Below are positions 17,337 to 25,151 of a DNA stretch of 64,000 nt, piece by piece. Origin of the DNA: Pseudomonas fulva NBRC 16637 = DSM 17717 (lineage in GTDB: Bacteria > Pseudomonadota > Gammaproteobacteria > Pseudomonadales > Pseudomonadaceae). The DNA is taken from the NCBI RefSeq assembly GCF_000730565.1, contig NZ_BBIQ01000003.1:62001-126000 (forward strand). The letters are read 5' to 3'. The translations under genes were made by a program, and so were the position numbers. Within the stretch, counting starts at the first letter, position 1, and every line of letters begins with the position of its first letter. Under the pieces are notes generated by a model that did no database searches, was not told where the DNA came from, and worked only from the letters and a program-made list of their open reading frames with translations.

Positions 17337-17354
17337 TGTAAGGTTTTGTTTACA
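17337..17354. promoter_or_regulatory. TyrR/PhhR-type box, TGTAAG-N6-TTTACA, upstream of aroP
   Basis: TGTAAG at 17337-17342 and TTTACA at 17349-17354 are separated by six bases, matching the TyrR box TGTAAA-N6-TTTACA at 11 of 12 fixed positions. The same half-sites recur between phhA and phhR in this window. The box lies about 500 bases upstream of the permease start and 200 bases upstream of the small ORF, suggesting that PhhR controls this transcript. Confidence 0.65.
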
Positions 17355-17551
17355 AGCCTTGGCTGATTCTCGCAGCAAATCAGAAAAAGTCCCCGTCCGT
17401 AAAGAAAGCTTGCCGAAGCCCCTCTCTCCGGTTGCGTCCTCAGCCCTTCACCTCCCTTGCTTAAACCCCCGCTCCACGGTGTTATAGCCCTCATTGCCCC
17501 GTGCAACAGCCCGCCGCAGAGCCGGTTGATAAAACAACAAATGGAGGCGCC

Positions 17552-17722
17552 ATGTACGCCGATCAACTCGCCCACAAAGGCCATTACCCCAGGAACGCTG
17601 CGTTTTTTCCGCCGGAAACCACGCAACGCGTTGACGCCTGCGCGCTTGCAGGGTTATACAGTGCGCCGCGTTTTACCTGTGACCCCTTTGCGTACCGCGC
17701 ACTCCTGACCCCGCCCGGTTGA
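17552..17722 (+). CDS. Small ORF (56 aa), Phe/Tyr-rich, between PhhR box and aroP
   Basis: I do not recognise this protein. It starts at an ATG preceded by AAATGGAGGCGCC, a near-ideal ribosome binding site stronger than that of the permease gene downstream. The 56 residues contain four Tyr (2, 12, 36, 48) and four Phe (18, 19, 41, 46), about 14 percent aromatic, plus two Cys and several Pro. There is no signal peptide or membrane segment. It lies downstream of a PhhR-type box and 118 bases upstream of the aromatic amino acid permease. A leader peptide or an independent small protein are both possible. It could also be chance, which is why confidence is modest. Confidence 0.45.
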   Translation: MYADQLAHKGHYPRNAAFFPPETTQRVDACALAGLYSAPRFTCDPFAYRALLTPPG

Positions 17723-17840
17723 CTCGACCGCGCAGCTGTACCTTCAGGAAACAAGGTGACCACCTTGCCCATTCCGCTGCGCCACGAGCGCGGTGGGTCC
17801 GATTCCGTCACAGATAAAAACAATGCAGGTGACTTCGTTC

Positions 17841-19259
17841 ATGAGTGGACACGACAAGCATTCAGGCGAGCTCAAGCGGGGCCTGAAGAACCGCCATATT
17901 CAGTTGATCGCCCTGGGAGGCGCCATCGGTACCGGCCTGTTCCTGGGTTCGGCGGGCGTGATGAAATCCGCCGGCCCGTCGATGATCCTGGGCTACGCGA
18001 TCTGTGGTTTCATCGCTTTCATGATCATGCGCCAGCTCGGCGAAATGATCGTCGAGGAGCCCGTGGCCGGCTCGTTCAGCCATTTCGCCCATACCTACTG
18101 GGGTGGCTTCCCCGGCTTCCTGTCGGGCTGGAACTGCTGGGTGCTGTACATCCTGGTGGGCATGTCCGAATTGTCCGCCGTGGGCAAGTACGTGCACTAC
18201 TGGTGGCCGGAAATCCCTACCTGGGTAACAGCCGCTGCGTTCTTCGTGCTGATCAACGCCATCAACCTGATGAACGTGAAGTTCTTCGGCGAAGCTGAGT
18301 TCTGGTTTGCCATCATCAAGGTGGTGGCCATTGTCAGCATGATCGGCCTGGGTGCCTACCTGCTGACCAGCGGCAGTGGCGGGCCTGACGCGACCGTCGC
18401 CAACCTGTGGTCGCACGGTGGCTTCTTCCCCCATGGGGTCAGTGGCCTGGTGATGGCCCTGGCGTTCATCATGTTCTCGTTCGGGGGGCTGGAGATGCTC
18501 GGCTTTACGGCCGCAGAAGCCGACAAGCCCAAGACCGTGATCCCCAAGGCCATCAACCAGGTCATCTACCGCATCCTGATCTTCTACGTCGGTGCCTTGC
18601 TGATCCTGCTGTCGCTCACGCCGTGGGACACCTTGGTCGCCAGCATCGATGCCTCCGGCGGCAGCTACGGCAGCAGCCCGTTCGTGCAGGTGTTCTCGTT
18701 GCTGGGCAGCGATGTGGCCGCCAACCTGCTGAACTTCGTGGTCCTGACCGCGGCCTTGTCGGTGTACAACAGCGGTACCTATTGCAATGCCCGCATGCTG
18801 CTGGGCATGGCCGAGCAGGGCGATGCGCCGGCCGCCTTGGCCAAGGTCGACAAGCGTGGCGTACCGGTGCGTTCGATTCTGGTGTCCGCGGCCGTGACCC
18901 TGATCGCCGTGCTGCTCAACTACCTGATGCCTTCCAGCGCGCTGGAGCTGCTGATGTCGCTGGTCGTGGCTACCCTGGTGATCAACTGGGCCATGATCAG
19001 CTACTCGCACCTCAAGTTCCGTCAGCACCTCAACCGCACGGGTCAGAAACCCCTGTTCCAGGCGCTGTGGTACCCCTACGGCAACTACGTGGTGCTGGCC
19101 TTCGTGGTCTTGATCCTGGGCATCATGCTGCAGATTCCGGGTATCCAGGTGTCCGTCTACGCCATCCCGGTCTGGTTGCTCTGCATGTTCGTAGCTTATG
19201 TCATCAAGTCACGGCGTAAGGGCGTCATCACTGAAGCCGTTGGCAGCGCCGCCAAATAA
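17841..19259 (+). CDS. aroP: Aromatic amino acid permease, AroP-type
   Basis: A 472-residue member of the amino acid-polyamine-organocation (APC) family with twelve membrane helices. The N-terminal NRHIQLIALGGAIGTGLFLG motif and the EEPVAGSFSHFAHTYWG and SFGGLEMLGFTAAEADKP segments match AroP/PheP/GABA-type permeases, which import Phe, Tyr and Trp by proton symport. Assignment as AroP rests on family resemblance and on the upstream PhhR-type box. AGGTGA precedes the ATG at 17841; another ATG at 17823 would add six residues. The 500-base upstream leader contains a small Phe/Tyr-rich ORF. A strong terminator follows. Confidence 0.85.
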   Translation: MSGHDKHSGELKRGLKNRHIQLIALGGAIGTGLFLGSAGVMKSAGPSMILGYAICGFIAFMIMRQLGEMIVEEPVAGSFSHFAHTYWGGFPGFLSGWNCWVLYILVGMSELSAVGKYVHYWWPEIPTWVTAAAFFVLINAINLMNVKFFGEAEFWFAIIKVVAIVSMIGLGAYLLTSGSGGPDATVANLWSHGGFFPHGVSGLVMALAFIMFSFGGLEMLGFTAAEADKPKTVIPKAINQVIYRILIFYVGALLILLSLTPWDTLVASIDASGGSYGSSPFVQVFSLLGSDVAANLLNFVVLTAALSVYNSGTYCNARMLLGMAEQGDAPAALAKVDKRGVPVRSILVSAAVTLIAVLLNYLMPSSALELLMSLVVATLVINWAMISYSHLKFRQHLNRTGQKPLFQALWYPYGNYVVLAFVVLILGIMLQIPGIQVSVYAIPVWLLCMFVAYVIKSRRKGVITEAVGSAAK

Positions 19260-25133: not shown

Positions 25134-25151
25134 TGTAAGGATAATTTTACA
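25134..25151. promoter_or_regulatory. TyrR/PhhR-type box in the phhA-phhR intergenic region
   Basis: TGTAAG (25134-25139) and TTTACA (25146-25151) are spaced by GATAAT. This matches the TyrR box and shares both half-sites with the site upstream of aroP. It lies 117 bases from the phhA start and 115 from phhR, so it may control both. Known PhhR biology in Pseudomonas (activation of phhA) supports it. Confidence 0.75.

Follow-up and report, generated by a model that had tools for sequence, protein, structure and literature searches.

The 56-codon open reading frame (ORF) at 17552..17722 on the + strand of the window (the whole 64-kb stretch of DNA analysed) is most likely the remnant of a lost tyrosine-degradation cluster, in which a start that formerly belonged to hpd is joined to the tail of a former maiA. 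This origin as a scar is well supported by comparison with related loci. The interpretation held here with moderate confidence is that the scar serves as a translated leader ORF under Hfq/Crc control, independent of its peptide sequence, whose ribosomes would disturb a helix at the start of the downstream permease gene aroP. The ORF is real and probably translated.

The ORF extends from an ATG at 17552 to a TGA at 17722 and is preceded by the Shine-Dalgarno (SD) sequence GGAGG (17543..17547, +), putatively the former ribosome-binding site of hpd. The combination GGAGGCG-N1,2-ATG occurs only once in the 64-kb window, at this start site. The gene rluB lies upstream and aroP downstream, and a PhhR-type box is found 200 nt above the ORF. 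The aroP gene (17841..19259, +) encodes an amino acid permease of 472 aa from the ATG at 17841 and matches PF00324; AroP is the best NCBIfam match of its product, below the family cut-off. Its SD, AGGTGA (17827..17832, +), serves an NSS gene in relatives. The stop of the ORF at 17722 and the aroP start at 17841 are 118 nt apart, neither overlapping nor abutting. The earlier note had described a 56-codon ORF with a correctly spaced GGAGG, eight Phe/Tyr residues in 56, a position between a PhhR-type box and the aroP start, and a CAAGGTG/CACCTTG repeat behind it, and each of these observations was reproduced (box at 17337-17354, repeat at 17752-17767, the latter part of a conserved leader). Only 2 of 5000 shuffles of the ORF DNA reach eight Phe/Tyr codons, and against an average proteome P is about 0.02. 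No Pfam and no NCBIfam family was matched by the 56-aa product, and a plasmid search matched nothing.

The box above the ORF, TGTAAGGTTTTGTTTACA (17337..17354, +), is a putative PhhR/TyrR-type site with one mismatch to the consensus TGTAAA-N6-TTTACA, and is homologous to the box above hpd in relatives; the same element was recognised by eye above hpd in L227-L233. Sites of this type with at most two mismatches number 3 in the window versus 0.36 expected. With this putative TyrR/PhhR box upstream, aroP has the sequence feature expected of a member of the PhhR regulon. A second conserved box, CGTAAAGAAAGCTTGCCG (17398..17415, +; by eye), is present above hpd in relatives too. Conservation in the leader alignment further marks TGTTATAGC (17480..17488, +) as a possible -10 element of an hpd-type promoter; the promoter scan called no promoter at this element or at the conserved block described below. 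Genes for a TyrR-type regulator and a D-2-hydroxyglutarate dehydrogenase are also encoded in the window, in which another PhhR/TyrR-type box, TGTAAGGATAATTTTACA (25134-25151), lies between a divergent phhA-like ORF and the TyrR/PhhR-type regulator gene. Two - strand ORFs are presumably phhA and phhB, and we take the region to correspond to PP_4489-PP_4495 of KT2440, with aroP as PP_4495.

The ORF is conserved beyond chance. Matches to it below 1e-7 were found in 48 of 298 genomes of the same genus (own genome included). All 48 directly precede aroP, and rluB is the upstream neighbour of 43; among the five without rluB, four end near a contig edge and one (L019) has a different neighbour. Leaders were assigned to classes by pattern (L067, filed as NSS, and L133, filed as 'other', are both class-2-like). 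Among the 68 class-1 aroP leaders, the ORF has exactly 56 codons in 62, and SD and ATG are present in 65; of the other three, two with full upstream sequence lack this combination and one is cut off. The distance from the ATG to the conserved block is 105 nt in all 65, and that from the stop to the hairpin varies from 25 to 54 nt. A comparison across Pseudomonas, which the earlier note had proposed, thus gave a divided answer: most close relatives share the start, the frame and the stop, but a single base is deleted in L047, the start is missing from L045 and L078, the end is altered in L004 and L032, and a large aroP group with the remnant of an NSS gene has a different ORF or none.

Codon changes were analysed in 42 homologues, omitting L004 and L032 for their changed ends and L045-L048. 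The 383 inferred changes are spread evenly over the codon positions (132/132/119), and 106 are synonymous versus 108.5 expected under neutrality, so that the whole ORF (z -0.29) does not display the synonymous excess of a conserved small protein. Codons 5-26, with 252 changes of which 54 are synonymous versus 62.2 expected, behave likewise. Almost every position of codons 35-50 is invariant, even the third, and the DNA of this block is conserved also in leaders and relatives without such an ORF. The frame itself has stayed open: about nine nonsense changes (9.0) were expected among the 42 homologues, and three were reconstructed, all on internal branches and none at a tip. Apart from the last codons, the ORF therefore resembles cbrX in having an open frame with an unconstrained peptide sequence. 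Because purifying selection on amino acids is absent except in these last codons, both a small protein and an attenuator that reads Phe/Tyr codons are unlikely. The independent small protein suggested by the earlier note was rejected, as neither a family match nor amino-acid selection was found.

The earlier note had also proposed a classical attenuator that senses charged tRNA-Phe/Tyr, to which the aromatic amino acid importer downstream and a Phe/Tyr content above that of shuffled DNA lend some appeal. Such a device is highly improbable here. The Phe/Tyr codons are scattered and drifting, and no cluster of control codons of the trpL/pheL type was found: the count ranges from 3 to 11 across 60 distinct homologous ORFs and from 0 to 8 within codons 2-34, while the Phe/Tyr codons of codons 35-48 fall in the invariant stretch that is kept also without the ORF. 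The intrinsic terminator that such an attenuator would need was also missing, no terminator-like site being found on the + strand between 16800 and 18200; on the - strand one weak terminator-like site was seen, with 1.3 expected. The observation that no terminator separates the ORF from aroP therefore stands, and with it the view that any coupling should be translational or possibly Rho-based.

Only codons 48-56 deviate from neutrality, with 38 synonymous changes versus 24.0 expected (z 3.7). Codons 54-56 read ACN CCN GGY in the 60 distinct ORFs, with variation almost entirely at third positions, and the Thr-Pro-Gly end is followed by TGA in 60 of 60. In arrest peptides of the TnaC type, a variable N-terminus is followed by a conserved end and a UGA stop, and the window ORF may resemble them in all three respects; it differs in that its conserved end is short and partly conserved at the nucleotide level. 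The nascent C-terminus (...AYRALLxTPG-stop) might accordingly stall the ribosome at UGA, an aromatic amino acid possibly serving as co-inducer, and the free third positions of Thr-Pro-Gly, the invariable UGA and the unconstrained N-terminal half would suit such a peptide. We regard this as quite unlikely, for L040 ends in TSS and L079 in MPG, L044 and L046 differ upstream, and the feature is absent from class 2. Codons 35-47 keep their nucleotides also where a leader lacks the ORF and are thus uninformative on peptide function.

Evidence for the origin of the ORF comes from other Pseudomonadaceae, in which a cluster of hpd, in some genomes hmgA and fahA, and then maiA is bordered on one side by the same PhhR-type boxes and on the other by the same leader. 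At seven loci the 5' region of hpd has both boxes as well, together with a stretch rich in A, GGAGG and ATG(A)ACGCC/ATGACCGCC, and the hpd start in relatives reads ATGAACGCC or ATGACCGCC after GGAGG. The start region of the ORF (CA motif AAnAAnAA, GGAGG, ATGnACGC) matches this hpd start region. At the other end, codons 35-51 (17654..17704, +) represent the decayed 3' end of maiA, in the maiA frame LYNARRFNCDLAAYPRIL. In genomes such as those of L069-L104 the same block forms the 3' end of intact maiA, which sits behind hpd, hmgA and fahA (the hmgA protein scoring below the NCBIfam cut-off and above that of Pfam); at L285, L286 and L300 maiA directly follows hpd. From the hpd-like 5' region and the maiA-like block, the ORF can therefore be read as an hpd start joined to a maiA tail. 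The N-terminal residues of the window ORF have no similarity to Hpd detectable by profile search beyond M-x-A. When ORF N-termini of both classes were tried as Hpd, none of class 1 fell below E 1 and the best of class 2 reached about 1, with shuffled decoys starting at 3.8. The window genome has its own hpd and maiA elsewhere, on separate contigs C43 and C27 (L276, L234), and the N-terminus of this hpd (ADIFDNPMGLMGFEF) differs from that of the hpd of the ancestral cluster.

Intermediate stages are preserved at several loci. At L296 and L297, AACAACAAGGTGGAGGCGCC-ATG opens a 45-aa hpd stub that is followed by the maiA tail, and a second ORF, from an ATGA overlap with the stub, crosses TGTGAC. 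L294 contains another hpd stub (E 1.5e-4 to the hpd N-terminal profile), L290 an hpd stub followed by maiA of intact length, and L301 an intact hpd followed by a truncated maiA. In g275, maiA of intact length is kept in 9 of the 12 loci examined and lost in 3, and in g273 it is kept in none of 8 (L303 and L304, which have no anchor, were left out of this comparison); loss of maiA is, by these gene contents, recurrent in the family. An SD-led ORF across TGTGAC occurs at all three g275 loci that lost maiA and at 3 of the 8 g273 loci, a convergence in favour of the mechanism proposed below; against it, at L284 and L295 no SD-led ORF was found within 330 nt. A probable reason for the survival of the maiA tail is that GUUUUAnCUGUGAC is able to pair with GUCACAGAUAAAAAC immediately ahead of the aroP SD.

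Both strands of the helix are retained in class-2 leaders, and 49 of the 92 have an ORF that ends 49-58 nt before the block; 40 of the 92, with full upstream sequence, lack the ORF. Since these ORFs stop short of the block or are absent, crossing of the helix by a leader ORF is not general. The class-2b ORFs (44-49 codons, mostly 48) lie upstream of the block and use the same start site in a different scar. They too are free of amino-acid selection (110 synonymous changes versus 120.1 expected), and no early stop occurs in any of the 49 class-2 ORFs.

The neutrality of codons 5-26 and the different or missing ORF of class 2 could also indicate that the sequence is a decaying remainder of the hpd-maiA loss with no function of its own, in which the start-site elements alone matter, for example as a landing site for Hfq/Crc or RNA, and the frame is open through inertia. 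We consider this rather unlikely. The CA motif, SD and ATG persist amid scrambled flanks, the distance from ATG to block is fixed, and codons 54-56 vary at third positions only. Moreover, none of the 42 class-1 tips carries a stop, and the class-2b frames are likewise open, with one nonsense change inferred versus 10.6 expected. The scar, as we infer, has been retained because it is still functional.

The preferred reading, a leader ORF translated irrespective of its peptide, links the ORF to aroP through a long-range helix. Its 5' strand, GUUUUACCUGUGAC (17670..17683, +), lies in the maiA-derived block and its 3' strand, GUCACAGAUAAAAAC (17807..17821, +), just upstream of the aroP SD; GUCAC of the latter can alternatively pair with GUGAC of that SD. 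Between GUUUUAnCUGUGAC (17670-17683) and GUCACAGAUAAAAAC (17807-17821) 12 pairs are possible around one mismatch. In 223 loci, a set that includes some near-duplicates, the first seven pairs form a near-invariant core of 7 bp, each identical in 218-222 of the 223, and the position opposite A8, at the mismatch, drifts freely (A 97, C 96, absent 28, U 2). At pair 9-7, 200 loci have A-U, 10 G-U, 7 G-C, none A-C, and 6 a mismatch or another combination, a covariation with a Fisher value of 4.8e-9, relatedness ignored; the seven G-C loci belong to three genera, and in some of them the block is still coding. Because most helix positions are invariant, this is the single covarying pair. The leader segment has the block as its best partner in 67/67 class-1, 90/92 class-2, 23/23 class-3 and 12/13 other leaders, with mean ensemble probabilities of the helix of 0.87, 0.83, 0.86 and 0.60, respectively; in g3 (L245, L246) the helix is weak or absent. 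For the window, the probability depends on the chosen 5' end (0.30, 0.91, 0.97 and 0.38). Conservation of the block might alternatively reflect a second aroP promoter (TGTATAAT/TGTACAAT-like) or an operator instead of an RNA strand, as a TAYAAT-like hexamer is found in many relatives and TTGACG lies 18 nt upstream in the window. This explanation is improbable, since the conserved stretch continues for 25 nt past the hexamer and is a mirror of the leader segment, variation falls mainly on the unpaired position of the helix, and the window hexamer is TATACA, with the promoter scan empty.

Two further hairpins belong to the leader between the ORF and the 3' helix strand. The short hairpin CAAGGUGACCACCUUG (17752..17767, +) is the CAAGGTG/CACCTTG inverted repeat CAAGGTGACCACCTTG, whose arms differ among relatives and still pair in most rows as judged by eye. 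The second, of 8 bp, CCGCUGCG-CCACGAG-CGCGGUGG (17774..17796, +), has a conserved loop YCAYRAG. In 69 distinct sequences it retains 90.4% standard pairs, a level reached by 0 of 1000 shuffles (mean 78.5%) and not by slid versions of the hairpin (30-51%); the spurious match L098 was left out of these counts. Covariation is strong, with double changes at 6 of 10 consensus pairs in 44 sequences. The segment GGGTYCGATTYC between this hairpin and the helix (17797-17806, and its homologues) is nearly invariant and resembles a tRNA T-loop. The fold of the leader alone is not more stable than that of shuffles (z -0.92). A search of the window against Rfam 15 gave five tRNAs above the gathering threshold and nothing else, and at E up to 5 the leader gave one sub-threshold match, on the opposite strand. 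The motif CCGTCACAGATAAAAACAA, with at most two mismatches, is found in 320 of 398 genomes of the genus. A covariance model built from 44 leaders found one copy in 56 of 119 genomes of the family, in 8 of its 19 genera; at the level of the order it matched 3 of 145 genomes (the own genome and two of the same family), and at that of the class 1 of 185 (the own genome), counts made with filters that lose weak matches. Downstream of the leader, aroP or an NSS/SNF transporter gene was found at all 32 loci checked; the NSS gene replaces aroP at L069, L093, L171 and other class-3 loci, and in other genera at L250 and L253-L269. Since it stands ahead of either gene, the leader is common to two unrelated transporter families. 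It is a structured leader of Pseudomonadaceae, undescribed in Rfam and in the literature searched, which yielded no account of a leader ORF or leader RNA for aroP of Pseudomonas (subscription journals were mostly outside the scope of the search).

Each of the two start sites of the leader is accompanied by an Hfq/Crc-type CA motif, giving two such sites within one leader. The first, AACAACAA (17533..17540, +), lies beside the SD of the ORF, as is the case in cbrX; the second, AAAAACAA (17816..17823, +), overlaps the helix and adjoins the aroP SD. AAnAAnAA is located within 16 nt of the SD in all 65 class-1 ORFs, with n differing, and across 61 distinct class-1 rows each A is kept in 54-61 of them and the n positions are variable. 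On the + strand of the window the motif is found 10 times, including once at each of the two leader start sites; in the 3168 nt of L001 it is found twice, each time at a start site. From the motifs, both may be bound by Hfq-Crc. A mutated CA motif frees aroP2 of P. aeruginosa from Crc control (PMC3480352), and in P. putida PP_4495, AroP2, belongs to the predicted Crc regulon, its mRNA being 2.6-fold up in crc (PMC3003667). These cases resemble the present one in that an aromatic amino acid permease gene has AAnAAnAA beside its start; a leader ORF, a second CA motif and leader RNA structure go unmentioned in the available parts of the two accounts (PMC3480352, PMC3003667).

In the favoured scheme, an ancestral tyrosine-catabolism cluster stood between a PhhR-type promoter and a leader driving aroP or an NSS-family transporter gene. 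When the cluster was lost in this lineage, the promoter of hpd together with its CA motif, SD and start codon became fused to the final ~50 nt of maiA, ahead of the leader and aroP, an origin that the comparison of loci demonstrates. Ribosomes would start at the old hpd site, where Hfq-Crc could block them, and translate the short ORF across the maiA-derived helix strand, the amino acids hardly mattering. The long-range helix would close the leader directly upstream of the aroP start, and the passage of ribosomes would open it, so that translation of the leader ORF would set the state of the aroP start. With the helix formed, its CA motif would be partly covered; with the helix open, the CA motif would be exposed and GUCAC would be free to pair with the aroP SD. 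When the block of class-1 leaders was masked as single-stranded, as under a ribosome, the predicted probability of the SD hairpin GUCAC:GUGAC rose from 0.04 to 0.78 and the openness of the CA motif from 0.44 to 0.94, and the average openness of the SD was little changed (0.39 to 0.36). As a result, the sign of control is not readable from folding. The conserved leader probably controls aroP translation, and we infer a direction and size of the effect, its sign included, only provisionally. A stronger version, in which dead genes supplied a ribosome-operated RNA switch from a maiA strand and the aroP start, Hfq-Crc-gated translation of the scar ORF toggling the masking of aroP SD and CA motif, and which arose recurrently on cluster loss, is tentative and may well prove wrong. 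Under it, since the family acquired the same scar on at least two further occasions, gene loss would repeatedly have made the operon a translated riboregulator.

The closest known system is cbrX of P. putida, a leader ORF that bears an Hfq/Crc site and must be translated for cbrA, whatever its sequence (PMC6591292). The window ORF is similar in being short, in having an A-rich Hfq/Crc-type site at its start and in that its translation, but not its peptide sequence, would be needed; cbrX overlaps cbrA and is predicted to be membrane-inserted (PMC6591292), whereas the window ORF lies 118 nt from aroP, would act through the proposed long-range helix and was created by fusion upon gene loss. Translational coupling within polycistronic mRNA provides another parallel. 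In maiA-bearing genomes the helix strand lies inside maiA, and translation of maiA could therefore open the start of the next gene; in the window the upstream gene is gone, and the scar ORF would substitute for it. Class-1 and maiA-bearing genomes offer a ready natural experiment. If the favoured reading is correct, a regulatory leader ORF was born as the fusion scar of a lost operon and not de novo; selection would have preserved the start signal of its first gene and the RNA strand of its last and left the coding middle free. It also cautions that conserved short ORFs may mimic small proteins when their conserved part is an RNA element.

A second scar of gene loss may be present in the class-2 leaders. 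At loci such as L049, L051 and L061 an ORF of 19-20 residues (MTxxxLNSWCLRWGLI...) directly follows the leader SD, before aroP, and by its sequence looks like the truncated start of a lost NSS gene. The Trp-containing MTxxxLNSWCLRWGLI* of the fluorescens-type leaders was also considered as a leader peptide; its sequence can be aligned to the N-terminal end of the NSS transporter that follows the same leader in other genomes, and it is more simply explained as a gene remnant.
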